A model generated the notes under the pieces. The model saw nothing but the letters and a program-made list of their open reading frames with translations, did not search any database and was not told the origin of the DNA. A program made the translations under genes and the position numbers. From contig NZ_CP036264.1 in assembly GCF_008035925.1 (NCBI RefSeq), forward strand, positions 2,600,443 through 2,664,442: DNA of 64,000 bases, given 5' to 3'. Shown here one piece after another: positions 36,338-64,000 of the stretch. This DNA comes from Stieleria maiorica. Lineage in GTDB: Bacteria; Planctomycetota; Planctomycetia; Pirellulales; Pirellulaceae. Position 1 is the first letter of the stretch, and every line of letters starts with the position of its first letter.

Positions 36338-36444
36338 GGGGTTCGGGGGCTGGCCCCCGAGTACGCTGGGCTGCCCTGCTAACAAGTATCCAAAAGTTGT
36401 CTCAATGTCGTTGACACATTCCGCGGCCCGCCAGATGTACTTGA

Positions 36445-40847: not shown

Positions 40848-40889
40848 GGTTTGTTGAGTTGCTAGTTGCGAGCGGCCAGTTGTAGTGAC

Positions 40890-41180
40890 TTACACAACAA
40901 TGCATGGGGCGGCCATGTCGCTGTAGGGTTTGCCGATGGCTTGGACCAAATCATCGGATCGATTTTCGACGCTGCCCAGGTCGACGACCAAGACTTGGTC
41001 TTCGCCGTGATGGATGATCTCGGCGAGTTCGGCTTTGCAGTGGATCAAATCCGTCGGCGTCAGATGGCACTCAAAGACGCTGTACTGAAGATGGTCGCCC
41101 CAGTTCTTCAAGCATTTGAAGGTCTGGCGAAGCCGCTTGGGCTCACAGACGTCATAGGTGATCAGGTAGATACGTCGCAC
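40890..41180 (-). CDS. cas2: Cas2
   Basis: 96 residues from the GTG at 41180: VRRIYLITYDVCEPKRLRQT with the conserved first-strand Asp, then WGDHLQYSVFECHLTP and QVLVVDLGSVE. The typical Cas2 ferredoxin fold length is 90-100, so the longer frame to 41336 is not used. Cas2 bridges two Cas1 dimers during integration. It lies 42 bases before cas4-cas1. Confidence 0.92.
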   Translation of the reverse strand: MRRIYLITYDVCEPKRLRQTFKCLKNWGDHLQYSVFECHLTPTDLIHCKAELAEIIHHGEDQVLVVDLGSVENRSDDLVQAIGKPYSDMAAPCIVV

Positions 41181-41534
41181 GGCGAATGAACTCGGCGGGC
41201 CGTCGCGAAGGGCCAAGAGTCCCTGGCCGACCTGCACCAGGGTAGTTGGAGAAAATCGGCACGCCAGCATCGCGACAGCGCGGTAAGCCAAATATTTTCC
41301 ACAGCGCCGACAGGTATACACTCGCATTAAACGCACGCCACCTATCGACCCTCCATGCCTTCGTTTAAGTCGACAGGTCTGGCCCCGTGCCCAGCGCCCG
41401 GCTCGCGGTCACCCGCGACGACCGCGAACGGGCGTGGGATCGAAAGGATTCAACAACCGAATTGAGAAAGAACGGGGGCCGGCTCGCGGCGTTGGCTCAG
41501 TCCGACGACGGATATATCGTTTTAATGAGATGTT
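41181..41534. other. Gap within cas operon
   Basis: 354 bases between cas3 and cas2 with no gene recognised; a long gap for a cas operon, so cas2 and cas4-cas1 may have their own promoter. Confidence 0.4.
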
Positions 41535-45845: not shown

Positions 45846-45865
45846 TCCTGATTCAAACTTCGTAA

Positions 45866-45908
45866 GCCCCTCACCCCCGGCCCCGCTCCCCGAAGCGGGG
45901 CGAGGGGA
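45866..45908. repeat. Stem-loop between csb2 and cas3
   Basis: Inner stem CCCCGCT/AGCGGGG (45881-45900) and outer stem CCCCTC/GAGGGG form a long GC-rich hairpin in the 80-base gap. No T-run, so it looks like a dispersed REP-like element. Confidence 0.5.
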
Positions 45909-45925
45909 GCCAGATTATCTATTCG

Positions 45926-47608: not shown

Positions 47609-48806
47609 CCTCCGTCGGTGATTCCGCTGCAGCCTTTTCCTGACTTGCGACCAGCAACTTCATCAACGAATCTTTGGGACGCAGCGTTACCGGTTCGGTA
47701 TGGTAGGGAAGGCCGACGCCGCGAAGTTGCTCGACCGCTTCGTTATAAAGCGCGATGCCTTGATCTCCGGTCAACGTAAACCGCTCGGGTGTTTCGCCGG
47801 GTCGATCGAGCAGTTCCAATTCAAACGGAACTTCCGGCCACAGCAGGCATCGACTGCGGAGATCAAAACCAGCTTCGCAAGCCAACGCGGATGCCATCAA
47901 GCCGATCGAAGCTAACAGCGTTCTTCCAGCATTGTCGGCCTCAGGCGACCACTGGCCGTCTATTGGAAACCGCAAACGCCGCAACGCCGGCAAAGACAGC
48001 GTCAATGAATGTTCGCAGTAGTCACAAGTGATCCCGCCAGCATCAATGGTCGGCGGGATGTTGCCGTGGTTAATCTCCGATGCCTGCACGGTTCCCTTAC
48101 TTTCTTTCGCCGCGACTTCGTATTCGGAATCATTGCCTTTCTTGATCGGGATACCGCTGCGAATTTGCAGCGGATCGATCCGGCTGCTCGTCCGCACCCC
48201 AACGGCCGCGCCGATGGCTACGATTTCGCTGACGATGGCGCGTTGAAATTTTGCGCCCAAACCGCCTTTTGGCCCAGTGCTATCCCACAACCCGAACAGC
48301 AAGGAAGTCGGTGAGATTTCCAAAAGTGGCGTTGCGTTGGCCAAGCTTGCAACGTCGAGCCGGCTGCCCCAAGAACTTTTGCGGAAGGGGACCGCCTTCC
48401 CATCTTCGTCAATCAAGCTGTCACGCAAAATCGCATCAGCCAGTCGGTGCGGAACGTCCAACGTCGACAACGATCCGATCGGGTCGGTCAATTTGTCGTC
48501 GTCAAAGTCGACGCGAACAAGTGGAAGGGACAGCTTGCCCGAGTCCACTTGGAGCTTTAACGCTTCCTCAAGCCGATTAGCACTCGACTGCACCGAATCA
48601 ACCAACACGCAAGTAACTTCCTCCGGTTTGCCATCGGTACCGGTTCTCCGACGTTGTTCGATCGCATACTCGCCGCCCAGATGCGTCGGTGGAAAGATCT
48701 TTCCGCCGGGACCGTCGGCTGGATGCAACCGCGTCCGAGAACGAAAGGCACATGCAGTGTTAGAAACGGCGTCGTGAAGTGTCTTGAGGTTGAGTGATGA
48801 GGGCAT
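47601..48806 (-). CDS. csb1: Csb1 (Cas7 backbone of subtype I-G)
   Basis: 401 residues. Diagnostic N-terminus: RTRLHPADGPGGKIFPPTHL and VLVDSVQSSANRLEEALKL; later PLLEISPTSLLFGLWDSTGP and KGGLGAKFQRAIVSEIVAIG. Csb1 multimerises along the crRNA in the effector complex. First gene of the leftward cas operon; a repressor or Csa3-type regulator is not present nearby. Confidence 0.94.
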   Translation of the reverse strand: MPSSLNLKTLHDAVSNTACAFRSRTRLHPADGPGGKIFPPTHLGGEYAIEQRRRTGTDGKPEEVTCVLVDSVQSSANRLEEALKLQVDSGKLSLPLVRVDFDDDKLTDPIGSLSTLDVPHRLADAILRDSLIDEDGKAVPFRKSSWGSRLDVASLANATPLLEISPTSLLFGLWDSTGPKGGLGAKFQRAIVSEIVAIGAAVGVRTSSRIDPLQIRSGIPIKKGNDSEYEVAAKESKGTVQASEINHGNIPPTIDAGGITCDYCEHSLTLSLPALRRLRFPIDGQWSPEADNAGRTLLASIGLMASALACEAGFDLRSRCLLWPEVPFELELLDRPGETPERFTLTGDQGIALYNEAVEQLRGVGLPYHTEPVTLRPKDSLMKLLVASQEKAAAESPTEGD

Positions 48807-49813: not shown

Positions 49814-49903
49814 GCCAATGCAACTAAGCCGCCCTATTGGCCGGGCTAGGGGCTAAAAAAAAGACCGGCATGATTCGCAGAATGCAGGCTCCGACTGAAA
49901 CAC

Positions 49904-49925
49904 CCCGCCGAACTGATCCGGCGGG
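49904..49925 (-). terminator. Stem-loop at the end of the ubiquitin-like operon
   Basis: CCCGCCG/CGGCGGG with an eight-base loop, 30 bases after the last stop of the leftward operon (49955). T-rich sequence follows on the plus strand (ATGTTTTATT) and GTGTTTC on the minus strand, so it could work in either direction. Confidence 0.5.
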
Positions 49926-49954
49926 ATGTTTTATTGTACCGTCGTGACTCGGGA

Positions 49955-50380
49955 CTAGCGGTCCGATAAGTTTGCTTGATCTGAACGCGGTGACGCCCTG
50001 GGAACACGCTTAGACTCGGTCGTGAGCATTTCGACGAGCACCGGATCGGCTCTTGCTTCGTCAACCCGATCGCGTTTGCTTTTTGTGAGCAGCAACAGGA
50101 TCAACGCAAGCGGCAGGCAGCATGCGAGCAGGATGCCCGTCGCCTCGATGGACTTGGCGACGATCGGGTCGCTGCGTTCGCGTTCGGACCAGAGTCGGCG
50201 GTCCGACTCCAGATCGTCTCGGCCCTGACTGAGAATCTCTTGTTGATCAAGCATCCTTGTCTGGGCGTCGAAGACCTGTTCAACCTGACGGTCGGTCAGA
50301 ACCGGTGGTTCGCGTTTGCATCCGCTCAGCAGCAGGGGCAGGAGAGTGATTGTCGAGATCATGGCGAGATTTGTTTTCAT
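49955..50380 (-). CDS. Lipoprotein/membrane protein, last gene of the operon
   Basis: 141 residues. A lipoprotein signal (MKTNLAMISTITLLPLLLSG followed by Cys 21) precedes a helical stretch (VFDAQTRMLDQQEILSQGRD) and a second transmembrane segment (GILLACCLPLALILLLL), so both the lipid anchor and a helix may hold it at the membrane. GAGGAGGG lies before the ATG. It overlaps the preceding frame by about 100 bases in another frame; both have ribosome sites. Function unknown. Confidence 0.55.
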   Translation of the reverse strand: MKTNLAMISTITLLPLLLSGCKREPPVLTDRQVEQVFDAQTRMLDQQEILSQGRDDLESDRRLWSERERSDPIVAKSIEATGILLACCLPLALILLLLTKSKRDRVDEARADPVLVEMLTTESKRVPRASPRSDQANLSDR

Positions 50381-50531
50381 CGCCCTCCTCGTGGTTTCGG
50401 GGTTGATTGGGGAGTAGATGATTCAGGATTTCACGCAATCCTCGAATCTGTGTTTTCGACTGGAGCAAAAGCAAGGCCGTGACGGTCAATGCCATTGCCA
50501 GCGTGAAAACGACTACGTGGATAGGGTCCAT
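50280..50531 (-). CDS. Small membrane protein
   Basis: 83 residues, one transmembrane helix at the N-terminus (VVVFTLAMALTVTALLLLQ) and a polar, histidine- and asparagine-rich tail. GGAAATC precedes the ATG. The second half overlaps the start of the next gene in another frame, so the natural end may not be conserved. Confidence 0.45.
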   Translation of the reverse strand: MDPIHVVVFTLAMALTVTALLLLQSKTQIRGLREILNHLLPNQPRNHEEGDENKSRHDLDNHSPAPAAERMQTRTTGSDRPSG

Positions 50532-50576
50532 GTTTGATTTCCGTTCCGCAAAGAAGTGGAGCGCGGTAAAAAGCCG

Positions 50577-50987
50577 CTATGCGGCGTCCCGAGATTCTTT
50601 CAGCTCGCCGATCAGGCTTGAGGCTTGGCGAATCGAGAGTGCCGAAACGTCGGCGACCCCGAAACGGTCTTGAAGCAGGTGATCGAGATCCACACCCTTA
50701 CGGCGTGCAATCGCCCGGATGGCGGCGACTTGCTTTGCCGTTGCCAAGCGGGGGCTGCCGTCACGAGAGTTGGAACGTTCATGACGGTCCGGTCGGCCCG
50801 AGCTATGTGCTGCTGTCTCAGAGGGCGAAATCACACGCCCGGAAACGGCGTCGACGCAGTGACGGGTAACTCGGTGAAGCCGTGACTCCGCATCGGCGTC
50901 GAATTGGTCCAGCTGGAATTCAGCCGCACAGGTCGTGGTGGTTCCGTCTCGGCAGGGCGGGCCGGCAACACTGATTGAAAGTTTCAT
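50577..50987 (-). CDS. Hypothetical protein with C-terminal helical domain
   Basis: 136 residues. The first half is polar with several Cys and His; the last 55 residues form a compact helical domain (ATAKQVAAIRAIARRKGVDL, DRFGVADVSALSIRQASSLI) of a type I have seen at the end of various phage and plasmid proteins, perhaps a small binding module. It follows the E1-like gene by about 46 bases and appears to belong to the same transcript. Function unknown. Confidence 0.6.
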   Translation of the reverse strand: MKLSISVAGPPCRDGTTTTCAAEFQLDQFDADAESRLHRVTRHCVDAVSGRVISPSETAAHSSGRPDRHERSNSRDGSPRLATAKQVAAIRAIARRKGVDLDHLLQDRFGVADVSALSIRQASSLIGELKESRDAA

Positions 50988-51033
50988 GGGGCTCCATGGT
51001 TTGAGTGAATGAACCAGCGATGAGGATTGGTCG

Positions 51034-51690
51034 CTAGGTGGGCATCATTTCCGATGCGAGAAGGTTGACGCTCAGGTCGCGTTCGACGGGTATGCCCCGT
51101 AGCCAGCGCGTGAGCTGGTGGACCATCAGTGATGCCGCAAGACTGGCGGCGTAGACGGTGCTGGCCGTGGTGCAGCTTCCTGTGTGGGCCTCCGCCGCCG
51201 CGAACAGCGTCGTTTCGTAGTGCTCGTCGTGTTTCGGATCATCCGAGGCGAGCACCCTGACGACTTCACCACGCATCCGCCCGTCGATCCACAAGTCGCA
51301 GCGAGATTTCGCGCAACGCCAGATGGCGGTCCGTGATGAAATCGAATCGACGCACGAAACGACAATCTCGCCGTGTCTCTGGCGTGGCCGGAATCGGTCC
51401 TTCACGATGGCCACATCGATCATCGGATCCACCAAGCGAAGATCGCAAACCGTCGCCTCCACCTTCGCTTGGCCGATTTGGTCGTGCCGGTAACCTTGTG
51501 TGGTAACGTTGGTCGGCTCAACGTGATCAAAATCGATCAGCTGCAACCGTGGTACGCCGATCGAGGCGAGCTGCAATGCGACTTGGCGTCCGATGGCGCC
51601 GACGCCGATGACGGTAACCCTGTGGTCTGCAAGACGTTCCCGAGCGACCAGCCCGGATTGTCGCGCAAAGCGATCTGCCGGCCCGGTCAT
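51034..51690 (-). CDS. E1-like ThiF-family adenylyltransferase
   Basis: 218 residues. Should activate the C-terminus of the ubiquitin-like protein by adenylation. The arginine in [10 protein letters not shown], the nucleotide loop [18 protein letters not shown], the strand [20 protein letters not shown] and the Asp in [11 protein letters not shown] are all in place. The likely catalytic cysteine lies in [14 protein letters not shown]. There is no extra domain, so it is a minimal E1. The ATG overlaps the JAMM gene stop (ATGA), so the two are translationally coupled. It is longer than a MoaD-type partner enzyme core only by a short C-terminal tail. Confidence 0.9.
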
Positions 51691-52391
51691 GAGGCTACCC
51701 ACTCGCTGGCATTCCACGGACTGTCGTCGCAAGACGCTCCCATGTCCGGCGAATCCGGGCGAAAGTCACGTACGTCGCTGTCCGGAAAAGTGCCGTGCCG
51801 CATCGCAAACGGATCCAACACGGTCACGCGGCGTGCATATTCGGTCGACCACAGATCATGATCTGCCGCGGCAAAGGGGGCCGAGTAGTCGATCGTCCGC
51901 CGCAATTGCGTTTCACCCCCGGGGCCGGTGTTGAACTTCAGACGCCCGTACGTGGCTCCGTGCTTGGCCAAAATGAACATCACGGCCCAGTCCGCTGAGC
52001 CGAAGCAGCGCACAAACGTCTCTTCGTCGGTACCACTGGGAGACGGACAGCTTCCCGGATGGGTGTGGATCCAGATCCGGGCAAATTGCTCCGGGGAGCG
52101 TCCCTCGTCGACCTGGTCATCGAAAAAGTCGGCCACCGACGCGTCGTCGAACTCGACCGAAACCGGTGTGCAGACCTGATCGATCATCACCACGTCTTCG
52201 ATGAGCAGCAAGTCGTGTGCGTTGCTGATTCCGAATCCGCCGACCTCGGTACCGCCGAAGTCACGTAGGAACTTCAGTTTCGCCCAGGCGTAGGGGCTGA
52301 ACCGCAGGGTTTGGCGCCAGCCCGGCTCCTGCCGGCGTCTCGGTCGGCTCCTGCGACCGCTCTTCGTTCGTTTCCTTGTCAAGGCAATCAT
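51687..52391 (-). CDS. JAMM (Mov34/JAB1/MPN) metallopeptidase
   Basis: 234 residues with a complete zinc site: Glu49 in GGTEVGGFG and the motif [14 protein letters not shown] giving His109, His111, Ser119 and Asp122 at exact JAMM spacing. Enzymes of this group cut ubiquitin-like proteins from targets or trim their C-terminus. The basic first 25 residues overlap the 3' end of the E2 gene by 131 bases in a different frame; a later start would damage the fold, so the overlap seems real. Next to it lie the E1 and E2 genes. Confidence 0.93.
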
Positions 52392-53379
52392 CGCATTGGT
52401 TCTCCGTTAAACAGTGTTTGCAAAAAGACTCGCCGCATCGGTCGCGCATTTCCATGCAACCCTTGCAGTAGTAAGATCTGCAGCCTTTGCAGATCGATGT
52501 ACAGTCGTGACAGAACGACTCGTCGCACGCTTCACAGCCGCAACTACAGTCGCTGCACGTTCGGCGACCGCAGCTGTCGCACCGGCATGTGTCGTCTTCG
52601 TCGACGTTCGCACCACAGTCACCGCATTCCACACCGAACCAGTCGTTGATGCTGATGTAGGCACTGTCGGGGTTGTAGGTCTGCAGGACCTGGCGAACGA
52701 TCAGGAAGAAGTCGTACAGACGGCCGTCGGCGAGAGCGTGTTTGATCGGTTGATGACCATCGCCTTCGCAGAGCGCTTCCGACTGTACGTGTGGGTGTGT
52801 GGTTGAGTCACAGCTCACCGCAGGCTGCGGATCTGTCGCGATTACGCGGTAGGGAGCGGACTGACCGAGGTAGCGAATTTCCAACTCGATCTTGAACGGT
52901 CCCAACAGCACGCCTTCCAGCTCGATTGGTTCGGTGATCACGCCGACGGTGCCGTTCTTCACATTCAGCTCGGCGGATTCGAAGTCGGCCTCCAGTGCTG
53001 TCAAATCGCCGATGAGTTCCGGCAATCCACACCGGACGCCGGGCTCGACGGTGTCGGCCGTCGAATCCAGTGTTCGATCAATCGACTCGCGGAGGGACCT
53101 CAACGTCCTGGCGATTTCGCGATGCAGACGGTTTGCCGCGAGCAGCCAGCCGCGAGAGACGGCGACCGGTTCGAGTCGCTGCAATCGAAGTAGCCTCTGC
53201 AGGGAATCCGTTGAGACTGTCGTCAGCCGACGTCGTGGCGAGGTTTCGCAAACCGCTGCCAGAATCTTCTGTGCGATCTGGTACCGCGTCCGGGCACGCT
53301 TGCAATCGAGTCGGCGACCACGCCTGGATGCAGTTCGCCCCGCATTGGTGGCGTGCCCTGGGTTTGACTCCCGAATCAC
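52261..53379 (-). CDS. E2-like (UBC) protein fused to a cysteine-rich treble-clef domain
   Basis: 372 residues from the GTG at 53379, which overlaps the stop of the ubiquitin-like gene (GTGA) and has GAGGGAG upstream. Residues 1-125 are helical. The UBC-like core is about 135-250: [18 protein letters not shown], then [15 protein letters not shown], in which His195-Pro-His resembles the HPN motif and Cys204 is the best catalytic cysteine, and a following helix [16 protein letters not shown]. Residues 252-332 contain 21 cysteines in CxxC pairs (for example [23 protein letters not shown]), a RING/treble-clef-like zinc array that could act as an E3 module. Known bacterial ubiquitin-like systems contain such parts; the exact subtype could not be confirmed. 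Confidence 0.82.
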
Positions 53380-53597
53380 GATGCTCCCTCGATCTTGGTC
53401 GGCGTGATCGAGATTCGGTCGCCTTCCTGCAGGATTTGATCGCGGGGCACCGGCAGACGATTCACTCGAATCAGATAATTCGACTCCCGGGCGGCCCCGA
53501 TGCGTTGGTTGAACAGGTCTTGGACAGAGGTGTTGTCTTGCACGTCGATGTAGTCGGCGAAACCGGCACCGTCGTTGTTGATCAGTAGGACTTTCAT
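53376..53597 (-). CDS. Ubiquitin-like beta-grasp protein
   Basis: 73 residues, ThiS/MoaD/ubiquitin-type fold by pattern: strand [10 protein letters not shown], strand [18 protein letters not shown] (turn and helix), [20 protein letters not shown] and [10 protein letters not shown]. The 'VN..PV..D..L..GD.I.I.P' pattern is typical of ThiS-like proteins. It ends in EGAS rather than Gly-Gly, so trimming by the JAMM enzyme or use of another residue would be needed for conjugation. CAGGAAAA precedes the ATG. It directly precedes the E2, JAMM and E1 genes, all coupled by overlaps. Confidence 0.8.
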
Positions 53598-53696
53598 GGA
53601 TCGGTTTTCCTGTGGTTGGGATTGGAATTTGCCGTGACGGCCGACCGGTCGCGCGTCGTGCGAACCCGGCGGCGGCCACGGCGAAAGAAACGATGA

Positions 53697-53770
53697 CCGG
53701 CGGCACGCTGGGCGCACCGCCGGTCATTGCGGGTGGTGGTGATTCCTGGTTGCGATCGATGGCAACCAGG
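53697..53770 (-). other. Two hairpins before the ubiquitin-like gene
   Basis: CCTGGTTGC/GCAACCAGG (53745-53770) and a GC-rich hairpin around 53697-53723 (CCGGCGG/CCGCCGG type). They lie in the 180-base gap upstream of the ubiquitin-like gene on its transcript. No T-run. Confidence 0.45.
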
Positions 53771-53780
53771 GTGACAGCAC

Positions 53781-53987
53781 CTAAAACTCGAAAGACAAGT
53801 CCGCATTGATGTCATCCTGTGCGGCATGAAATGCGTCCCAGTCGATGACGTGGGGGCCGAGATCCTCGGCTTCCGGGTCGCTGATCGAGATGTCGGGATC
53901 GGCGATCAGAAAGCCGAGACGCTTAATGGTGGCGACGGTTTCACCCGTCGCACGAGAAACACTGCGATAGAGGTCTGCTTGAAGCAT
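53781..53987 (-). CDS. Small hypothetical acidic protein
   Basis: 68 residues: MLQADLYRSVSRATGETVAT then IKRLGFLIADPD and an acidic tail (EAEDLGPHVIDWDAFHAAQD). GGAG lies ten bases before the ATG. The N-terminal part resembles a short DNA-binding-like helix pair, but no family is recognised. It is preceded on its transcript by a strong terminator-like hairpin. Confidence 0.55.
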   Translation of the reverse strand: MLQADLYRSVSRATGETVATIKRLGFLIADPDISISDPEAEDLGPHVIDWDAFHAAQDDINADLSFEF

Positions 53988-54019
53988 CGGAAGGGTTCTC
54001 CAAAAGGTGGGGTTAGAAA

Positions 54020-54070
54020 CGAAAAAAGCCCTCGCCGGTCAGCGGACGGCGCTGACCCGAAAGGGCTTCA
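54020..54070 (-). terminator. Strong intrinsic terminator or attenuator inside the operon
   Basis: On the minus strand a long stem (AAGCCCT/AGGGCTT outside, GGTCAGC/GCTGACC inside) is followed by TTTTTT. It stands between the 91-residue and 68-residue genes, upstream of the ubiquitin-like, E2, JAMM and E1 genes, and should reduce or regulate read-through into them. Confidence 0.75.
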
Positions 54071-54089
54071 AAAACAGGACTCAAACGAT

Positions 54090-54365
54090 TCAATCAGTGT
54101 GGAGGGCTTCCTCCGGGGCGGGCAGGAGCCAGTGCTGGTGCAGCCAAGCGACTTCCGCTCGCAAGGCCTCGCTACGGTTGCCGAACGGTCCAAGACTGGG
54201 GCCGTCGACAGGTGACAGATCAGCCATCCATTGGCCGTTCTCATCGGGCTCCACGTGGGAGCCCCGCTGGATCGATAGTTTGCCAATAACGGATAGGTCC
54301 ACGTCCTCGCCGTAAACGCAGCGACAGTTGCCGCTCGGGGTGACGATCAGCTCCATGCCGTTCAC
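54090..54365 (-). CDS. Small hypothetical protein
   Basis: 91 residues from a GTG that overlaps the stop of the preceding gene (GTGA), or 88 from the ATG at 54356 (MELIVTPSGNCRCVYGEDVD). Conserved-looking middle: IGKLSIQRGSHVEPDENGQW followed by MADLSPVDGPSLGPF. Probably a small beta-rich domain. Family not recognised, but the coupled start makes it a real gene of this operon. Confidence 0.65.
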   Translation of the reverse strand: MNGMELIVTPSGNCRCVYGEDVDLSVIGKLSIQRGSHVEPDENGQWMADLSPVDGPSLGPFGNRSEALRAEVAWLHQHWLLPAPEEALHTD

Positions 54366-55303
54366 TTCGTACGCCGCAGAATGTTGCGACGGGGGCGATC
54401 GACCATGAGACCATCCAGGGACGACTGCACCGCTGCCAACTGTCCGGTGATCCGCTGGCGCAACGACTCGCTGTCGCGAAGGCTCTGCGGTGCGACACCG
54501 TCAATGACTCGGCGAGCCCGGTCGACGACCTGGTCCAGCTCTTCGTTGGACCGGATGTTGAGTCGCTGGAACCGGTCAAAGAACTCGGCAAAGTTCTCGA
54601 TCGCGGAGTCACGGAACACCTTGGGCTTGCCGTCATCGTTGCCAGTCAGCCGTTCGGAGAGGTGCTCGACCATCTTGTTGAGTTCGTCGATGAACGCCGC
54701 TTCGGCCAATTGCACCGCTTCGTCGAACCGGCTTTTGACGCGATTGCATTCCTGCTGGTACAGCTCAGGATTGAGCCGACGCAGGTAGTCGGGCGGTTCC
54801 ACGCTGGGGAATTCCCAGCCGATCTCGAACAAGCCCCGTAGAGTGTCCGGGTAATCGCTTTCGCAGTACAGATCGCCGAGACGATCCCGGGCCTCGTACT
54901 TCAGCTCGTCAAAACGGCCGTCCAGGGCCGCGACGGCTTCGGCCAGCTCGTCCCGGAAGCTCTGCATCCGGCCATCGATCTGATCGACCGATGCTTGGGG
55001 AACCAGCCGGAGCCCCGGTTCCGGGAACGGCAACGTCGCGCCCTTGAAGTACGCGGTCGCTTGCGTGCGAACCGAGGTGACGGCGCGAAAGCTCGCGTCG
55101 CCGGTGTCGATCAGCTTTTTTCCAGCGCTGATGTACTTGCCTTCGGCATGGAACGTGTCCGCCGCCAAGGCCTTCTGCTCGGACGACAGCGATTTACGCG
55201 TCCCGAACCAAGTGAACGACAACCGCATCGCGGCCATCGTCGTGCGAAGTTTGCCACCGTGGTCTCTTGTTGCCGCGGGGGCGTCTTCGAGTGTTTGTTG
55301 CAT
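54362..55303 (-). CDS. Conserved hypothetical helical protein (313 residues)
   Basis: Starts MQQTLEDAPAATRDHGGKLR with AAGGAAA at the right distance; the frame open to 55507 has no other good start. Mostly helical: FGTRKSLSSEQKALAADTFH, then LEAEAV-like helices (RDELAEAVAALDGRFDELKY) and RRLNPELYQQECNRVKSRFD. The region about 230-300 (FFDRFQRLNIRSNEELDQVV) continues this pattern, so a long alpha-helical or coiled-coil protein is likely. A second copy starts at 63337. It follows the AAA ATPase gene after a 92-base gap with a stem-loop. Confidence 0.7.
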   Translation of the reverse strand: MQQTLEDAPAATRDHGGKLRTTMAAMRLSFTWFGTRKSLSSEQKALAADTFHAEGKYISAGKKLIDTGDASFRAVTSVRTQATAYFKGATLPFPEPGLRLVPQASVDQIDGRMQSFRDELAEAVAALDGRFDELKYEARDRLGDLYCESDYPDTLRGLFEIGWEFPSVEPPDYLRRLNPELYQQECNRVKSRFDEAVQLAEAAFIDELNKMVEHLSERLTGNDDGKPKVFRDSAIENFAEFFDRFQRLNIRSNEELDQVVDRARRVIDGVAPQSLRDSESLRQRITGQLAAVQSSLDGLMVDRPRRNILRRTK

Positions 55304-55335
55304 GAGATGATTTCCTTCGGTGGTGGGTAGATACG

Positions 55336-55367
55336 AAAACAGCCCACCGCGGTGACGGGGGGCTGTT
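55336..55367 (-). terminator. Stem-loop between AAA and 313-residue genes
   Basis: AACAGCCC/GGGCTGTT (55338-55345 with 55360-55367) followed on the minus strand by TTCG. Weak T-run, so possibly an attenuator. It is conserved in the inverted copy at 63274-63302. Confidence 0.55.
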
Positions 55368-55395
55368 GGGCAAAAACAAGGAGTTGCAATCCGGG

Positions 55396-56886
55396 TCAGT
55401 TTTCCGACGGTTCGCTGCGGGAGACGCCGTGCCGGGACGCACGGCGTTTGGGGCGATGCTGGTAGATGCCGGACTGATCGGCGTCCAGACAGCGCCCCGA
55501 CGCCCACTTACGGAGCCTTTCGATCGATTCCGCCGACGTGACCGCCACGGGAACGACGTTGCTTGCTGCCTGAACCACGGGGACATCGAGCAATGCCGCC
55601 AGCCGGCAGCACGCCCTGATTTCTGCGCCGGTCCAGTTGTCGTCGGCAGGCTTCCGCTGATCGGGTGGCAGAGCGAACAGCTCCAGATACAGCGACCAGA
55701 TCGTGTCTTTCTGCTCGCGGCCCGGCAGGTCGACAAAGAAGACACCGTCAAAGCGTTCGCTGCGGCTGAATTCCGGCGGCAGCTTTGACGCGTCGTTGCT
55801 GGTGCAAACCACAAACACGTCGGATTCGTGATCGTTGAGCCAACTCAAGAACGTGCCGAACATCCGCGATGAGACGCCGCTGTCGTTGCTGCCTGATCCA
55901 CCGACGCCCGAGAACGCCTTTTCCGCTTCGTCAAGCATGAGCACGCATGGTGCCATCGCATCAACGATCTGCAAGGCTTGCCGCGTTCGTTCCTCGGATT
56001 GGCCGACGAGCGAGCCCATCAGGCTGCCCACGTCCAGCTGCAACACGGGCCGACCGACTTCTTTTCCCAGTGCTTTGCAGAACTCGCTCTTGCCGCAGCC
56101 AGGCGGCGACAACAGCAACACGCCGCGGGGACGAACCAGTTTGTTTAGCTGACTCGATCGCAACAGGGACCGCCGCGTGAAGGCTTTCAGCGATGCCAGA
56201 CCGCCGAGGGCACTGAAATCCGCGTTGCCGCGATACAGCTGCAGAGTCCCCGCCTTGGTCAGCATCTGAGACTTCTGCTGCCACAGCGTTTCGGCCGTCA
56301 GCCGATTGTCTCGCACCAGCGACAGCGCAAACGCGTTCTCGGCTTCAAACCGGGTCAGTCCGGTCGCCGCATCGAGGACACGTTCGAATTGTGCCTCCTC
56401 GGGCTGTTCACCCGGCTCGGTGGCGATTGCCGCGGCGATCTCACGCAGCTGCTGACGGCTCGGCAGTTCGTGGTCGATCACCACGAACAGCTTTTCGAGC
56501 TCCACCGGAAGCTGCACAATCGGCGCCAGGACGACCAGAATCGTCCGGGTCTGCTTGCCGGTGATGACCTGGTGAGCGATGGCCTGGATGATCTCCGCGG
56601 ACTGCAGAAACCGGTGAAAGTTCTCCAGGACAACGACCGTCGTCTGGTCGTCTTCGGACAGCAGGCTGGCGACGCCGACGGCAGCCAGCGGATCACTGAC
56701 GTCCTGCTCGACGGTTTGACCGCCGCAGCGCAGGCCGGCGGCGATATTCCAACTGGCCATCCTCCAGCCCTCTCGCTGGCAGAGCTGGCTGATTTCATCG
56801 ATCGCATCGACATGTTCGTGTGATGTGATCCAGATTCCGGAGAAGCACGCGCGCACGAACTCCTCCATTCGCTTGGCGAGCGACAT
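55396..56886 (-). CDS. Ycf46-like AAA ATPase, copy A
   Basis: 496 residues. The first 230 form a degenerate P-loop-like domain (VRACFSGIWITSHEHVDAID, TVVVLENFHRFLQSAEII), as in Ycf46 of chloroplasts and cyanobacteria. The C-terminal AAA module has Walker A SPPGCGKSEF (about 260), GSLVGQSEERTRQALQI, Walker B CVLMLDEAEKAFSG (about 315), and sensor/arginine-finger region CTSNDASKLPPEFSRSERFD. The ATG at 56886 has GGAG upstream. Expected to remodel protein complexes; in this operon possibly the substrate handler for the ubiquitin-like system. Copy B at 61755-63245 differs by about ten residues. Confidence 0.88.
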   Translation of the reverse strand: MSLAKRMEEFVRACFSGIWITSHEHVDAIDEISQLCQREGWRMASWNIAAGLRCGGQTVEQDVSDPLAAVGVASLLSEDDQTTVVVLENFHRFLQSAEIIQAIAHQVITGKQTRTILVVLAPIVQLPVELEKLFVVIDHELPSRQQLREIAAAIATEPGEQPEEAQFERVLDAATGLTRFEAENAFALSLVRDNRLTAETLWQQKSQMLTKAGTLQLYRGNADFSALGGLASLKAFTRRSLLRSSQLNKLVRPRGVLLLSPPGCGKSEFCKALGKEVGRPVLQLDVGSLMGSLVGQSEERTRQALQIVDAMAPCVLMLDEAEKAFSGVGGSGSNDSGVSSRMFGTFLSWLNDHESDVFVVCTSNDASKLPPEFSRSERFDGVFFVDLPGREQKDTIWSLYLELFALPPDQRKPADDNWTGAEIRACCRLAALLDVPVVQAASNVVPVAVTSAESIERLRKWASGRCLDADQSGIYQHRPKRRASRHGVSRSEPSEN

Positions 56887-56958
56887 GGTGTACTCCAAGG
56901 GGGTAGTTTGTTGACGATGGCGGCAGAGCGCCGTCGGGAAGAAGGCAATAGCCCGTGA

Positions 56959-57147
56959 TCACTCGCTGGCCCGCTGCTGCTGCTCGGTGGCAGCCTGATG
57001 AAACTCGGGTTTCAGTTGTTCGCTGGTCTGCTGGCCCAGAGCCTGCAACAGGGAGCGGCTCGCCTGCCGGCAGTCGCTTCCGGTGAAGCCGCTGGTTTCC
57101 ACGCGGGTGTTCCCATCGGGGGCGACGATGATTTCGATGGTTTTCAT
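56959..57147 (-). CDS. DUF2997 protein, copy A
   Basis: 62 residues: MKTIEIIVAPDGNTRVETSG, then FTGSDCRQASRSLLQALGQQ, a pattern I recognise as DUF2997. It overlaps the DUF1257 stop by four bases (ATGA). Role unknown; DUF2997 and DUF1257 often occur together with Ycf46-like ATPases. Copy B is at 61494-61682. Confidence 0.82.
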   Translation of the reverse strand: MKTIEIIVAPDGNTRVETSGFTGSDCRQASRSLLQALGQQTSEQLKPEFHQAATEQQQRASE

Positions 57148-57512
57148 GCGGCACCTCCGACCTGGACGGTGACCTTGATGGAACCATCGGCCAATTGCTG
57201 TTCCCGGACCGAGTGCCCCTGTTTCCGGGCCTCCAACTTGGCCCGCTCGACGGCGTAAGCCTGCATGAACTCGTCGAGCCGTTTGGGGTCTCCCCAACGG
57301 CCCTGGTAGTTGTCGTACTGGACCTTCCCGGTATTGAGCTCGCAGACGACCGGGTAGCGCCAGTCACGCAGCTGGACGCCCAGGCCGGACACAGTTTTGC
57401 TAAACAGCTTGAAGGTACCCTCACTGGGCGGCTGAAGCCCCAAGCGATTGCAGCCCTCCCGGACGGCGGCCGCATCGCGGATTTCGGTCTGAATTTCGAC
57501 GATGTGCGACAT
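57144..57512 (-). CDS. DUF1257 (Ycf35-like) protein, copy A
   Basis: 122 residues starting MSHIVEIQTEIRDAAAVREG, as in Ycf35 proteins, with GLGVQLRDWRYPVVCEL, YDNYQGRWGDPKRLDEFMQA and a final strand ADGSIKVTVQVGG. First gene of the leftward operon. Ycf35 and Ycf46 are conserved in cyanobacteria and red-algal plastids but their biochemistry is unresolved. Copy B at 61129-61497 differs at about six residues. Confidence 0.87.
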   Translation of the reverse strand: MSHIVEIQTEIRDAAAVREGCNRLGLQPPSEGTFKLFSKTVSGLGVQLRDWRYPVVCELNTGKVQYDNYQGRWGDPKRLDEFMQAYAVERAKLEARKQGHSVREQQLADGSIKVTVQVGGAA

Positions 57513-57729
57513 CTTAAGTGCTCCGAAAGCGAAAAAAATCAGGTTTCCGGGGGCAACACGCTCCCGTCACCCGTACGTAGCGCGATTGAAAGCAGAGTTA
57601 AGGCAGCGCACGAACTTCGTGGGAATCGAACGGAGTTTTCTCGACGCTTGCGGACTTTTTGGTGGATTTTGACCGTCTCGGTCTATTGGCGGAGATTGCT
57701 TTATCCCCCTTTTCCATCAAGGAAATCAC

Positions 57730-58770
57730 ATGTCTGTCAAGAAAAAGACACGATCGAAAAAGACCCCGAAACGAAAGGCCGCCAATGGAAAACGAAGCAA
57801 AGCGACACCGAAATCCACGCCGAAGAAAGCGAATTTTACGAAACGCAAGACGCCTGCGAAACCATTGCAGCAATCCTCTGACGAGGCGGATCAAAAGCCG
57901 ACCGAGCACGCTGAATTAGGGCCTCTGCCGACCATCGAGCACGCGATTGAGCGGTACGACCAGGTCACAGGTGTGACAGAGGAGTGTGGGATCATGCCGC
58001 TGAACTCGGAGTCGCAGATCCAACAGCTCTGCGAGTCGATCAAGTCTACGGGGCAAACCGTCCCGATCGATATCACCTCCGACGGCAAATTGCTCAACGG
58101 TCGGCATCGGCTGATCGCATGTTGTGCACTGGGAATTAGGCCTGAGTTTCGTATCGTCGATCCTCAGAGCCCCCTGCAACATGTATTGGCCGACACGAAT
58201 CAGCGGGAATACAACGCGGCAACCCGTGCATGGATCGCCCTGGAAATCGAAAAGTTGTTGCGATCACGTATTGGCGAGCCGAACGGAAAACCGGACGCTC
58301 AGTCAAATGACGACGGCGAAGAGGATGTCGAAGTTCTGGCCGAAATCTACGTTGGTGATGGGAAGTCGATTGAATTAGCCCCCGGTGAGACGGTACGCGA
58401 GGCCGCGATTCGCTTGGCCAGGTCATCACGATCCGCCGTCCGTCGATTGACGACCGTCCTTAACAAGGATCGTGCACTCGCCATACAAGCTGTCCATGGC
58501 GAGATCACTCTGAAGGACGCTGAACGGCAAACTGGAGAAGCCTCTCACGTGCAGTGCAAGCCCAAGATAGCTGAACGAAAGCTGGCAACTGGAGCAATCG
58601 AATACTCCTACGAATCACGATCCGCCATCGTGTTTCCGAAGCGGCGTCACAACGGAGAGCTGCGGAAGCTCATAGTCCTGTCAGAGCCAGCGAAGTCAAG
58701 AACTATGCGGGTGAAGACCGCCAAGTTCGCACGTCTTAAAGTGATAGAGTTTCTCATGTCCTCTGGTTGA
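57730..58770 (+). CDS. ParB/Srx-type nuclease-fold protein
   Basis: 346 residues. A basic, lysine-rich tail of about 60 residues (MSVKKKTRSKKTPKRKAANG) precedes a ParB-like domain: CGIMPLNSESQIQQLCESIK, TVPIDITSDGKLLNGRHRLI. A helix-turn-helix-like region follows (GETVREAAIRLARSSRSAVR, EITLKDAERQTGE). Such proteins bind DNA or act as nucleases/CTPases in plasmids, phages and islands; no ParA is seen nearby. It is divergent from the DUF1257 gene of copy A and lies in the spacer between the inverted copies. Confidence 0.75.
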   Translation: MSVKKKTRSKKTPKRKAANGKRSKATPKSTPKKANFTKRKTPAKPLQQSSDEADQKPTEHAELGPLPTIEHAIERYDQVTGVTEECGIMPLNSESQIQQLCESIKSTGQTVPIDITSDGKLLNGRHRLIACCALGIRPEFRIVDPQSPLQHVLADTNQREYNAATRAWIALEIEKLLRSRIGEPNGKPDAQSNDDGEEDVEVLAEIYVGDGKSIELAPGETVREAAIRLARSSRSAVRRLTTVLNKDRALAIQAVHGEITLKDAERQTGEASHVQCKPKIAERKLATGAIEYSYESRSAIVFPKRRHNGELRKLIVLSEPAKSRTMRVKTAKFARLKVIEFLMSSG

Positions 58771-59519: not shown

Positions 59520-59650
59520 GTTAAAAAAGACTACTTTTTCTTATAGCCGAAACTGCCTTTTCAGTTACCGCTTGAGCGTCAAGCGTGCGGCGTTTCCACC
59601 GTGTTCCAAAACCGTACATACGGCTTTGGCTTCCACCGGAGACAAAACGC

Positions 59651-60889: not shown

Positions 60890-60946
60890 GGCACGATCGT
60901 TTTTGGTAGTTCATTGCAAAAACAAAATCCAACGTTTGTCACGAGC

Positions 60947-61060
60947 ATGAAAGGTTGCGTGCGGAAGGCGGGGCTCAGTGAATGCATCGACATTCACGCC
61001 GTTCGCTTTCGGGGCCACATCGGTGACCGGCATCCAAGGTTAATTCTGTCCGAAAAAGCG
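60947..61060 (+). pseudogene. Possible fragment of a second integrase
   Basis: A short stretch GCVRKAGLSECIDIHAVRFR contains a HAVR sequence as in the HxxR motif of tyrosine recombinases (usually preceded by a KAG...IH pattern). Nothing else of a recombinase is left. It ends exactly at the start of inverted copy B. Confidence 0.35.
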
Positions 61061-61128
61061 CTACGTACGGGTGATGGGAGCATGTTGCCCCCGGAAACCT
61101 GACTTTTTTCGCTTTCGGAGCACTTACG

Positions 61129-61497
61129 ATGTCGCACATCGTCGAAATTCAGACCGAAATCCGCGATGCGGCCGCCGTCCGGGCCGGCTGCAATCGCTTG
61201 GGGCTTCAGCCGCCCGGTGAGGGCACCTTCAAACTGTTTAGCAAGACAGCGTCCGGCCTGGGCGTCCAGCTGCGTGACTGGCGCTACCCGGTCGTCTGCG
61301 AGCTCGATACCGGGAAGGTCCAGTACGACAACTACCAGGGCCGTTGGGGAGACCCCAAACGGCTCGACGAGTTCATGCAGGCCTACGCCGTCGAGCGGGC
61401 CAAGTTGGAGGCCCGGAAACAGGGGCACTCGGTCAGCGAACAGCGGCTGGCCGATGGTTCGATCAAGGTCACCGTCCAGGTCGGAGGTGCCGCATGA
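61129..61497 (+). CDS. DUF1257 (Ycf35-like) protein, copy B
   Basis: 122 residues, MSHIVEIQTEIRDAAAVRAG to KVTVQVGGAA. It differs from copy A at about six positions (for example Ala for Glu at position 19, Asp for Asn in CELDTG). The upstream 70 bases are also conserved, so the promoter is duplicated too. Confidence 0.87.
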   Translation: MSHIVEIQTEIRDAAAVRAGCNRLGLQPPGEGTFKLFSKTASGLGVQLRDWRYPVVCELDTGKVQYDNYQGRWGDPKRLDEFMQAYAVERAKLEARKQGHSVSEQRLADGSIKVTVQVGGAA

Positions 61498-61682
61498 AGA
61501 CCATCGAAATCATCGTCGCCCCCGATGGGAACACCCGGGTGGAAACCAACGGCTTTACCGGAAGCGACTGCCGGCAGGCGAGTCGGGTCCTGTTGCAGGC
61601 TCTGGGCCAACAGACCATCGAAAAGCTGAAACCGGAGTTTCATCAGGCTGCCAACGAGCAGCAACAGCGGGCCAGCGAGTGA
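61494..61682 (+). CDS. DUF2997 protein, copy B
   Basis: 62 residues, four-base overlap with DUF1257 (ATGA) as in copy A. About five replacements relative to copy A, mostly in the C-terminal helix (SRVLLQALGQQTIEKLKPEF). Confidence 0.82.
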   Translation: MKTIEIIVAPDGNTRVETNGFTGSDCRQASRVLLQALGQQTIEKLKPEFHQAANEQQQRASE

Positions 61683-61754
61683 TCGCGGGCTTTTGCCTTC
61701 TTCCCGGCGGCATTCTGCCGTCATCGTCAACACACCACCCCCTTGGAGTACACC

Positions 61755-63245
61755 ATGTCGCTCGCCAAGCGAATGGAGGAGTACGTGCGCGCGTGCTTCT
61801 CCGGAATCTGGATCACATCACACGAACATGTCGATGCGATCGATGAAATCAGCCAGCTGTGCCAGCGAGAAGGCTGGAGGATGGCCAGCTGGAACATCGC
61901 CGCCGGCCTCCGCTGCGGCGGTCAGGCTGTCGAGCAGGACGTCAGCGACCCGCTGGCAGCCGTCGGCGTCGCCAGCCTCCTGTCCGAAGACGACCAGACG
62001 ACGATCGTCGTCCTGGAAAACTTCCACCGGTTTCTGCAGTCCGCGGAGATCATCCAGGCCATCGCTCACCAGGTCATCACCGGCAAACAAACCCGGACGA
62101 TTCTGGTCGTCCTGGCGCCGATGGTGCAGCTTCCGGTGGAGCTCGAAAAGCTGTTTGTCGTGATCGACCACGAATTGCCGAGCCGCCAGCAACTGCGTGA
62201 GATCGCCGCGGCAATCGCCACCGAGCCGGGTGAACAGCCCGAGGAGGCACAATTCGAACGTGTTCTCGATGCGGCGACCGGACTGACCCGGTTTGAAGCG
62301 GAAAACGCGTTTGCGCTGTCGCTGGTGCGAGACAACCGCCTGACCGCCGAAACCCTCTGGCAGCAGAAGTCTCAAATGCTGACCAAGGCGGGGACGCTGC
62401 AGCTGTATCGCGGCAACGCGGATTTCAGTACGCTCGGTGGCCTGGCGTCGCTGAAAGCGTTCACGCGGCGGTCCCTGTTGCGATCGAATCAGGTCAACAA
62501 GCTGGTTCGTCCCCGCGGCGTGTTGCTGTTGTCGCCGCCGGGCTGCGGCAAGAGCGAGTTCTGCAAAGCACTGGGGAAAGAAGTCGGTCGGCCCGTGTTG
62601 CAACTGGACGTGGGCAGCCTGATGGGCTCGCTCGTCGGCCAATCCGAGGAACGTACGCGGCAAGCACTGCAGATCGTTGATGCGATGGCACCATGCGTGC
62701 TCATGCTTGACGAAGCGGAAAAGGCGTTCTCGGGCGTCGGTGGATCAGGCAGCAACGACAGCGGCGTCTCATCGCGGATGTTCGGCACATTCTTGAGTTG
62801 GCTCAACGATCACAAGTCCGACGTGTTCGTGGTTTGCACCAGCAACGACGCGTCAAAGCTGCCGCCGGAATTCAGCCGTAGCGAACGCTTCGACGGTGTC
62901 TTTTTCGTCGACCTGCCGGGCCGCGAACAGAAAGACACGATCTGGTCGCTGTATCTGGAGCTGTTCGCTCTGGCACCCGATCAGCGAAAGCCTGCCGACG
63001 ACAACTGGACCGGCGCGGAAATCAGGGCGTGCTGCCGACTGGCGGCATTGCTCGATGTCCCCGTGGTCCAGGCCGCAAGCAACGTCGTCCCCGTGGCGGT
63101 CACTTCGGCGAAATCGATCGACAGGCTCCGTAAGTGGGCGTCGGGGCGCTGTCTGGACGCCGATCAGTCCGGCATCTACCAGCATCGCCCCAAACGCCGT
63201 GCGTCCCGGCGCGGCGTCTCCCGCAGCGAACCGTCGGAAAACTGA
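61755..63245 (+). CDS. Ycf46-like AAA ATPase, copy B
   Basis: 496 residues. Walker A SPPGCGKSEF, Walker B CVLMLDEAEKAF and the CTSNDASKLPPEFSRSERFD segment are identical to copy A. About ten substitutions, all outside these motifs (for example Tyr for Phe in MEEYVRACF, Lys for Glu in NDHKSDVF). Whatever role copy A has in the ubiquitin-like operon should be open to this protein. Confidence 0.88.
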   Translation: MSLAKRMEEYVRACFSGIWITSHEHVDAIDEISQLCQREGWRMASWNIAAGLRCGGQAVEQDVSDPLAAVGVASLLSEDDQTTIVVLENFHRFLQSAEIIQAIAHQVITGKQTRTILVVLAPMVQLPVELEKLFVVIDHELPSRQQLREIAAAIATEPGEQPEEAQFERVLDAATGLTRFEAENAFALSLVRDNRLTAETLWQQKSQMLTKAGTLQLYRGNADFSTLGGLASLKAFTRRSLLRSNQVNKLVRPRGVLLLSPPGCGKSEFCKALGKEVGRPVLQLDVGSLMGSLVGQSEERTRQALQIVDAMAPCVLMLDEAEKAFSGVGGSGSNDSGVSSRMFGTFLSWLNDHKSDVFVVCTSNDASKLPPEFSRSERFDGVFFVDLPGREQKDTIWSLYLELFALAPDQRKPADDNWTGAEIRACCRLAALLDVPVVQAASNVVPVAVTSAKSIDRLRKWASGRCLDADQSGIYQHRPKRRASRRGVSRSEPSEN

Positions 63246-63273
63246 CCCGGATTGCAACTCCTTGTTTTTGCCC

Positions 63274-63304
63274 AACAGCCCCCGTCACCGCGGTGGGCTG
63301 TTTT
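63274..63304 (+). terminator. Stem-loop between AAA and 313-residue genes, copy B
   Basis: AACAGCCC/GGGCTGTT followed by TTCG, the counterpart of 55336-55367; one C fewer in the loop-side run. Confidence 0.55.
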
Positions 63305-63336
63305 CGTATCTACCCACCACCGAAGGAAATCATCTC

Positions 63337-64000
63337 ATGCAACAAACACTCGAAGACGCCCCCGCGGCAACAAGCGACCACGGCGGCAAACTTCGCACGA
63401 CGATGGCCGCGATGCGGTTGTCGTTCACTTGGTTCGGGACGCGTAAATCGCTGTCGTCCGAGCAGAAGGCCTTGGCGGCGGACACGTTCCATGCCGAAGG
63501 CAAGTACATCAGCGCTGGAAAAAAGCTGATCGACACCGGCGACGCGAGCTTTCGCGCCGTCACCTCGGTTCGCACCCAAGCGACGGCGTACTTCAAGGGC
63601 GCGACGTTGCCGTTCCCGGAACCGGGGATCCGGCTGGTTCCCCAAGCCTCGGTCGACCAGATCGATAGCCGGATGCAGGGCTTCCGGGACGAGTTGGCGG
63701 AAGCCGTCGCAGCCCTGGACGCTCGTTTTGACGAGCTGAAGTACGAAGCCCGGGATCGTCTCGGCGATCTGTACTGCGAGAGCGATTACCCAGACACTCT
63801 GCGGGGCTTGTTCGAGATCGGCTGGGAATTCCCCAGCGTGGAACCGCCCGACTACCTGCGTCGGCTCAATCCCGAGCTGTACCAGCAGGAATGTGACCGC
63901 GTCAAAAGCCGGTTCGACGAAGCGGTGCAATTGGCCGAGGCGGCGTTCATCGACGAACTCAACAAAATGGTCGAGCACCTCGCCGAAAGGCTGACCGGCA
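63337..64000 (+). CDS. 313-residue hypothetical protein, copy B (3' end outside window)
   Basis: 221 codons are present, starting MQQTLEDAPAATSDHGGKLR. Closely similar to 54362-55303 (differences such as Ile for Leu in GIRLVPQAS and Ser for Gly in DQIDSRMQGF). Whether the ubiquitin-like, E2, JAMM and E1 genes follow beyond the window cannot be seen. Confidence 0.7.
   Translation, partial: MQQTLEDAPAATSDHGGKLRTTMAAMRLSFTWFGTRKSLSSEQKALAADTFHAEGKYISAGKKLIDTGDASFRAVTSVRTQATAYFKGATLPFPEPGIRLVPQASVDQIDSRMQGFRDELAEAVAALDARFDELKYEARDRLGDLYCESDYPDTLRGLFEIGWEFPSVEPPDYLRRLNPELYQQECDRVKSRFDEAVQLAEAAFIDELNKMVEHLAERLTG

Follow-up and report, generated by a model that had tools for sequence, protein, structure and literature searches.

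A predicted ubiquitin-like conjugation operon adjoining a Cdc48-like ATPase block in defence-rich regions of planctomycete genomes

Bacterial operons that encode E1, E2, RING and JAB proteins were reportedly predicted by Burroughs et al. in 2011. In the accessible text of the papers that describe the closest systems, mobile operons of E1, E2, JAB and ubiquitin-like modifier (Ubl) genes were proposed to have an addiction or protective role (Iyer et al. 2006, PMC1779556), the MoxR-vWA-FtsH systems carry a prokaryotic RING-type E3 in a tri-ligase Ubl conjugation, in which the suggested role of JAB is to set the Ubl free (Kaur et al. 2020, PMC7159879), and the archaeal JAMM enzyme Rpn11 was shown to trim pro-ubiquitin before activation by E1 (PMC5654768). 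The system described here lies in a stretch of 64,000 nucleotides (hereafter, the window; C1:2600443-2664442) of the single-contig, 9.89-Mb genome of Stieleria maiorica. Its genes, read leftward, are DUF1257, DUF2997, an AAA ATPase, p313 and p87 (the AAA block), followed by p68, Ubl, E2, JAMM, E1, p136, p83 and a lipoprotein. A reading made earlier from the sequence alone had reported such an operon on one strand; every gene that it named was indeed found in place, and its start and end were exact. On balance, we interpret the locus as a mobile Ubl conjugation pathway of defence-rich regions that is coupled, at roughly half of the loci known, with an AAA remodelling machine.

The conjugation genes and the ATPase block

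The predicted modifier is a 73-residue beta-grasp protein (53376..53597; all genes and hairpins of this operon are on the minus strand of the window), ending in IEG-AS. Gly71 and Ala72 were present in all 66 Ubls aligned, followed by 0-12 further residues, and none of the 66 ended at the glycine, a pattern that suggests a precursor, probably cut by JAMM to a single C-terminal Gly71. The glycine is encoded by all four of its codons (GGG 23, GGC 19, GGA 13, GGT 11), as is Ala72; a Shine-Dalgarno constraint was thus ruled out as the cause of the conserved pair, and since the codons vary, the conservation acts at the protein level. The Ubl matched the Pfam family ThiS with an E-value of 1.9e-4, yet its score of 22.4 bits is 0.1 bit under the cut-off (22.5), and the profile retrieved SAMP2 alone among solved structures, weakly (E 0.62). 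ThiS and MoaD themselves end in Gly-Gly. In one relative (P0006), Ubl and E2 are fused in a single protein of 421 amino acids. A separate Multi_ubiq open reading frame with three ubiquitin-like domains also occurs in the S. maiorica genome (G000:C1:7966051-7966680).

The E2 (52261..53379, 372 amino acids) has N-terminal helices and a C-terminal tail with nine CxxC pairs. It had no Pfam match at E <= 0.1; at least 71 proteins matched it at E <= 0.001, with scoring confined to the 7998 candidates that shared most words with it. Across 35 aligned sequences, H195-P196-H197 and C204 were invariant, which is the arrangement of a His-Pro ahead of the catalytic cysteine of an E2. Its AlphaFold2 (AF2) model, with a predicted local distance difference test (pLDDT) score of 86.9, resembles E2 folds weakly, and its profile retrieved weak matches from the PDB sequences, mostly zinc fingers (best E 0.0011). 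In the tail, His291 and His322 sit within CxxC pairs and are common to 7 and 5 of the 35 sequences, respectively. The coding regions of E2 and JAMM overlap by 131 nucleotides (52261-52391), and the E2 tail encoded there is alike in many relatives (set A1), a likeness that the JAMM reading frame may dictate.

The JAMM metallopeptidase (51687..52391, 234 amino acids) carries the glutamate and the H-x-H-x7-S-x2-D array that we take to be the JAMM spacing: E49, H111, S119 and D122 were found in 60/60 sequences and H109 in 59/60, and the nearest solved chain by sequence was an Rpn11-like protein (E 0.02). The E1 (51034..51690, 218 amino acids) is a ThiF-type protein with a single adenylation domain, nearest in solved structure to MoeB (E 7.4e-10). 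G29, G31, G34, R35, D53, K76, D115 and C173 were invariant in all 56 sequences, comprising a GxGxxG motif and a cysteine, C173, that is the putative catalytic residue. An E1 search at E <= 1e-25 gave 32 matches in nine genomes that have the E2, and none in nine genomes where E2 was not found.

These four genes travel together. E2 loci were sampled from the S. maiorica genome (3), from public genome and viral contigs (17) and from genomes of the order (54), leaving 70 after removal of four duplicates with identical E2. Among the loci with enough flank for counting, Ubl lay directly upstream of E2 in 65/67, with JAMM downstream in 58/59 and E1 in 53/55. The start-stop overlaps of the sequence-only reading were also borne out by measurement, with 4-nucleotide overlaps at DUF1257/DUF2997, p313/p87 (GTG start), Ubl/E2 and JAMM/E1, and longer ones at E2/JAMM (as above) and p83/lipoprotein (101 nucleotides).

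In the AAA block, the ATPase (55396..56886, 496 amino acids from ATG) has a Ycf46/Cdc48-like core at about residues 223-435, the nearest solved structures of which are AFG2, p97 and Cdc48, and K266, D319 and E320 were present in 33/33 sequences. It has one AAA domain, unlike Cdc48/p97 with two such domains plus an N domain, and scored 69 bits against 803 on the CDC48 model. The next protein, p313 (54362..55303), is helical (AF2 pLDDT 79.4) and has the DUF3150 fold: its best match in a viral fold library was a DUF3150 phage protein (E 2.4e-13; template-modelling scores 0.70/0.74). By sequence profile, its match to DUF3150 was under the cut-off (E 0.0085), and it had no PDB match at E <= 0.001. 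The block begins with the Ycf35-like DUF1257 protein (57144..57512, 122 amino acids; conserved in an alignment of 34) and DUF2997 (56959..57147, 62 amino acids; Cys26 in 33/33), and ends with p87 (54090..54365), a small conserved protein of 91 amino acids from GTG (alignment of 38; no Pfam match).

Pfam cut-offs were passed by DUF2997 (60.0 bits; cut-off 24.1), AAA (93.3; 21.2) and the E1 as ThiF (96.3; 28.1). DUF1257 (18.3; 22.2; E 0.0027) and JAMM as Prok-JAB (17.5; 25) fell below theirs, as did the Ubl; despite this, family-wide residue conservation supports the predicted DUF1257, ThiS-like and JAMM assignments. Overall, the E1-E2-JAMM-Ubl pathway of the sequence-only reading is supported by catalytic residues conserved in alignments of 33-66 sequences, AAA included.

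The same reading had joined the Ycf35/DUF2997/AAA genes to the conjugation genes, and this was examined in the 59 distinct loci with at least 5.4 kb of upstream sequence. The full DUF1257-DUF2997-AAA-p313-p87 block stood upstream of the conjugation genes in 30 of them, and p313 without AAA in 5; chance adjacency of the two blocks is ruled out by this recurrence. By Mantel test, AAA distances were correlated with those of E1 (r 0.87, n 27), E2 (0.87, n 31), JAMM (0.86, n 30) and Ubl (0.74, n 31), with 0/999 permutations as high in each case, so that where the blocks stand together they have long been co-inherited. Nearest-neighbour agreement was lower (AAA-E1 8/27, AAA-E2 15/31, AAA-JAMM 18/30), perhaps due to near-identical copies. 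By survey and congruence alike, the junction in the window is thus not a local accident.

The remaining genes are small. p68 (53781..53987) is a conserved protein with TG, GF and DWD motifs (alignment of 53; no Pfam match), p136 (50577..50987) has a weakly GemA-like C-terminal domain (Pfam E 0.0065, under the cut-off), and p83 (50280..50531), with homologues in 41 loci, has a hydrophobic helix that, by eye, makes it a membrane protein. The lipoprotein (49955..50380), with a transmembrane-like helix by eye, belongs to a family found in 43/75 mapped loci (duplicates included), with a lipobox in 27/40 by a strict script; its gene is mostly the first of the operon, and the last in the lineage of the window.

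Copies, distribution and the defence-rich neighbourhood

S. maiorica has three such operons, each with all 13 genes and about 92% identical in DNA: copy A (window 49840-57583); copy B, adjoining A in inverted orientation (plus strand, 60914..64000, where the window end truncates it, with DUF1257 at 61129-61497, DUF2997 at 61494-61682, AAA to 63245 and p313 from 63337) and running on to about G000:C1 2669233; and copy C (C1 5927311-5935197). The sequence-only reading had overlooked copies B and C together with the serine recombinases and the defence-rich setting described below. Every gene is under purifying selection among the three copies (dN/dS, the ratio of nonsynonymous to synonymous change, below 1, from 0 to 0.50), with AAA at 0.04-0.06 and Ubl dN at most 0.006. 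Against the relative SM50, the p83 ratio was 1.29 for copy A, 0.71 for B and 0.47 for C, making p83 the one gene without clear constraint in that comparison. The upstream stretch common to B and C extends about 145 bp beyond the part that they have in common with A. No terminal inverted repeats were seen at the copy borders, which were inspected by eye with no program run. Between A and B lie a divergent gene (57730-58770), ParB-like by eye with no Pfam match at E <= 0.1, and a tyrosine recombinase (59585-60889; Pfam Phage_integrase), the stop of which is followed after 25 bp by the copy B repeat.

The E2 was found in 37/396 genomes of the order (E <= 0.001, some matches weak and partial) and 15/392 of the phylum (E <= 1e-10), copy numbers per genome being lower bounds since the best five candidates per genome were scored. 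In genome G024 the E1 search gave seven copies. Two of the cassettes there (L090, L101) are solitary and surrounded by genes for metabolism and transport; ahead of each lies a short protein, weakly matched by a helix-turn-helix model, which is perhaps what is left of a recombinase. In G312, the AAA of one copy is 98% identical to that of another genome and 63% identical to that of another copy in G312. A plasmid-borne system was ruled out, there being no E2 match among 72,556 plasmid records. A viral origin was likewise rejected: of 15 pattern matches, one IMG/VR contig was confirmed (L033), which may be a mobile element; these contig scans used the closer set A2, as set A1 is too divergent for patterns.

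Large serine recombinases point to mobility. In 20 genomes, 25/44 of them lay within 10 kb of an E2, against 0.45 expected, and 22/49 E2s had one within that distance; the profile used to find them was built on recombinases next to E2 loci, so those that it recovers are a biased sample. Two were scanned, and both have Resolvase and Recombinase domains.

The surroundings are also rich in defence genes. We compared the flanks of 26 E2 loci in 12 genomes with 20 randomly placed 20-kb regions from those genomes, using 100/149 flank and 100/199 control proteins of 200-1500 amino acids from a simple longest-ORF (open reading frame) caller, leaving out operon and recombinase families and dropping the part of L014 already present in L013. 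At E <= 1e-15, the flank proteins matched 211 PADLOC families and the control proteins 26; these are counts of families, not proteins, the families are non-independent, and the flank set contains the Cas proteins of the window itself. The 25 flank families listed included an oligonucleotide cyclase and SAVED nuclease of the cyclic-oligonucleotide-based anti-phage signalling system (CBASS), BrxL, SduA, ThsB, JetB, pAgo and type I/III methyltransferases, whereas the 25 of the controls were mainly helicase and AAA families; the system names are those that we take the PADLOC gene names to denote. A Shedu gene lies 1.7 kb past the end of copy C. The window also holds a CRISPR array of 32 repeats with a cas set (Cas3-like, a Cas4-Cas1 fusion, GSU0054 and GSU0053 families; 36442-48806), presumably type I-G-like, ending about 1.1 kb from the last gene of the operon. 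Anti-phage activity, which the sequence-only reading had merely listed as known of such gene sets elsewhere, thereby gains neighbourhood support for this family, and we lean, by a little, towards a role in protecting the host from phages or other incoming DNA.

The neighbourhood admits another explanation, that the operon is a self-maintenance or regulation module of recombinase-borne elements, in which Ubl tagging of the recombinase, of a replication protein or of a competing element would control copy number, excision or exclusion instead of protecting the host. In 16 of the 17 loci with both genes upstream, 231-555 bp (measured between profile matches) separate the end of a large serine recombinase from the p83-like gene that follows; genes that are clamp-like, PD-(D/E)XK nuclease, Toprim-like and GemA-like recur nearby ('clamp-like' and 'Toprim-like' being readings by eye with Pfam support for neither); the DUF3150 fold of p313 matches phage proteins; and genomes hold multiple operon copies. 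However, the recombinases do not co-diverge with the operon (r 0.11 vs E1, 207/999 permutations as high; r 0.18 vs AAA, 71/999, n 13), the S. maiorica genome has no recombinase of the E2-associated profile at E <= 1e-15, yet its three copies persist under selection, and defence genes of unrelated kinds abound in the flanks. We regard this explanation as rather unlikely, although the best of the alternatives.

The proposed mechanism and its alternatives

Returning to the defence-related conjugation pathway, the following course may be envisaged. JAMM would trim the Ubl precursor after Gly71, E1 would adenylate this glycine and take the Ubl as a thioester on Cys173, as its conserved residues suggest, and Cys204 of E2 would then receive it. 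The Cys-rich tail of E2 may replace an E3 and present the target, and JAMM might also take the tag off. The AAA protein, the DUF3150-fold protein, DUF1257, DUF2997 and p87 could form a machine that unfolds or dismantles the tagged, or otherwise recognised, complex in the manner of eukaryotic Cdc48, while the lipoprotein and the small membrane protein would anchor the system to the membrane. An unfoldase role and a membrane location had both been suggested by the sequence-only reading, and both stay predictions here. The chemistry of the Ubl cascade is the firmest part of this scheme, and we hold it to be very probable. That the AAA protein acts directly on Ubl conjugates is considerably more doubtful. 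More tentative still is the full picture of a modular planctomycete defence platform mobilised by recombinases. In it, a Cdc48-like AAA protein with a single AAA domain and a phage-type DUF3150 partner would extract or unfold whatever a minimal Ubl pathway has tagged, as a bacterial counterpart of the ubiquitin-Cdc48 segregase, and the tagging module could be swapped for a clamp/nuclease module.

The two blocks do occur in other combinations. At E <= 1e-120 the AAA family has 63 copies in 31/117 genomes of the order; 13 of these copies are no more than 14 kb away from an E2 or E1 match. Among 20 AAA loci chosen away from the then-known E2s, DUF1257 and DUF2997 were present in all 20, p313 and p87 in 16, a clamp-like gene in 6 and a recombinase in 8; at one locus picked as E2-distant (L121), conjugation genes were found after all. 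S. maiorica itself has an AAA block devoid of conjugation genes at 4.11 Mb (L016, G000:C1:4110000-4129990), followed by clamp-like, p136-like and PD-(D/E)XK-like genes, the nuclease being named after its relative in L028 (Pfam PDDEXK_1); this block adjoins a gene that by eye resembles a type I methylase subunit. Conversely, conjugation genes followed by a clamp-like gene were found at three distinct loci (L074, L087, L091). In a further architecture (L095, L102-L106, L109), a family of about 250 amino acids, c251, directly precedes Ubl-E2-JAMM-E1. On contigs that extend far enough, p68 follows E1, and L095, L102, L104-L106 and L109 also have a recombinase upstream.

Several observations weigh against a coupled defence system. 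As many as 24/59 E2 loci lack both AAA and p313, and 50/63 AAA copies have no E2 or E1 match within 14 kb on their own contig, some contigs being short; the claim of a complete operon acting as one unit thus stands as to linkage and was too strong as to unity. A terminator-like hairpin parts the AAA block from the conjugation genes at the p87/p68 junction in 20/35 loci, with differing sequences, each followed by a T-run (median fold z-score -3.4 vs shuffled gaps); in copy A it lies at 54026..54069, where the gap folds at -34.1 kcal/mol ahead of the T-run. Another, of 16 pairs, lies upstream of Ubl (53693..53727), and hairpins with T-runs were found at p68/Ubl in 13/41 loci and at AAA/p313 in 5/26. 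Across the whole region, terminator-like matches were little above chance (12 vs 8.1, standard deviation 2.7). In view of these internal hairpins a single continuous transcript, as the sequence-only reading had it, is doubtful. Linked genes co-diverge with or without interaction, and recombinase-bearing islands collect any defence genes, so the neighbourhood may reflect mobility and not function; the control regions also gave strong PADLOC matches (BrxHI 1.2e-268, SngC 1.1e-131, RtcR 2.8e-113). For the E2, the fold match is non-significant by itself (best Foldseek E 0.14), and the tail has no histidine ligand conserved among the 35 sequences, the canonical RING pattern being of C3HC4 type with a histidine ligand and a cross-brace (PMC11354881, accessible text).

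Some of these points would suit a simpler account, namely that the AAA/DUF3150 and Ubl blocks are independent neighbours that share islands without acting on each other. Either block occurs alone, and a terminator-like hairpin marks their boundary in over half of the loci; against this, the AAA block recurs upstream of the conjugation genes in 30 of 59 loci and co-diverges with E1, E2 and JAMM, although long linkage is possible for independent partners as well. We consider this account improbable. Least credible is a ThiS/MoaD-like pathway for carrying sulphur or making a cofactor, in place of protein tagging; this reading is suggested by the ThiS and ThiF profile matches of Ubl and E1 and by the cyanobacterial cluster in which DUF2997 adjoins DUF1257 beside a ferredoxin gene (PMC4284462, accessible text), and is opposed by the catalytic-cysteine E2 that defines the loci, the JAMM that nearly always follows it, the single glycine plus tail of the Ubl without a terminal Gly-Gly, and the absence of any cofactor gene among the 13 operon proteins by Pfam.

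The coupled pathway would be of interest on two counts. It offers a compact, multi-copy bacterial Ubl cascade beside a Cdc48-like ATPase, in which precursor trimming is open to direct test. If the AAA machine does act on conjugates, it would also represent tag-and-unfold coupling in bacterial immunity, and would bear on the origin of the eukaryotic ubiquitin-Cdc48 partnership.

Comparison with known systems

Two candidates of narrower definition were set aside. A PRTRC cassette was ruled out, as the E1 scored 32.8 bits on PRTRC_ThiF against a cut-off of 144.75 and no other PRTRC model was listed for the 10 proteins scanned. Type II CBASS is defined by Cap2, an E1-E2 fusion, plus a CD-NTase; here E1 and E2 are separate, and no CD-NTase was found among the scanned operon proteins. 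The anti-phage ATPase of IetA/IetS has a similar AAA core, as compared by NCBIfam and PADLOC match only (PADLOC IetA E 6.9e-14; NCBIfam 49.1 bits vs a cut-off of 510); unlike that system, the operon has no protease partner among its Pfam matches besides the JAMM protein.

Other systems have the full set of conjugation genes, and are compared here as far as the accessible text of each paper goes. BilABCD likewise has Ubl, E1, E2 and JAMM in one bacterial operon, with the Ubl matured by the JAMM protein; however, BilA is a tandem of two Ubl domains, and BilD combines one active adenylation domain with an inactive one (PMC11354881), in contrast to the single 73-residue Ubl and the 218-residue one-domain E1 found here. 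The E1/E2/RING/Rpn11 operon of Caldiarchaeum subterraneum similarly involves a JAMM-trimmed pro-ubiquitin and then an E1-E2 relay, although it is archaeal, its Ubl ends in Gly-Gly, its RING is separate, and the text available does not mention an AAA/DUF block (PMC5654768). Type 6d of Iyer et al. (2006) shares the separate Ubl, JAB, E1 and E2 genes, a helical protein and the sporadic distribution, but its E2s are without the classical histidine, whereas here HPH lies ahead of the catalytic cysteine; the words AAA, ycf and planctomyc are absent from that accessible text (PMC1779556).

In the literature covered, which mostly excludes subscription papers, DUF1257, DUF2997, a Cdc48-like AAA, DUF3150 and the four conjugation genes were not found together. 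The MoxR-vWA-FtsH ternary systems come nearest, being multi-gene conflict systems, planctomycetes included, that have AAA+ proteins with JAB, E1, E2 and Ubl (PMC7159879, accessible text). In contrast to these, neither MoxR nor vWA nor a second AAA domain was found by Pfam in any of the 13 proteins of the operon; the Ubl is free, with no fusion to E2 or EAD1; the predicted zinc-binding tail is fused to E2; and the AAA protein is Cdc48/Ycf46-like with a DUF3150-fold partner. Ubl conjugation with AAA+ proteins in planctomycete conflict systems is already published, and the combination of genes described here is a variant of it.

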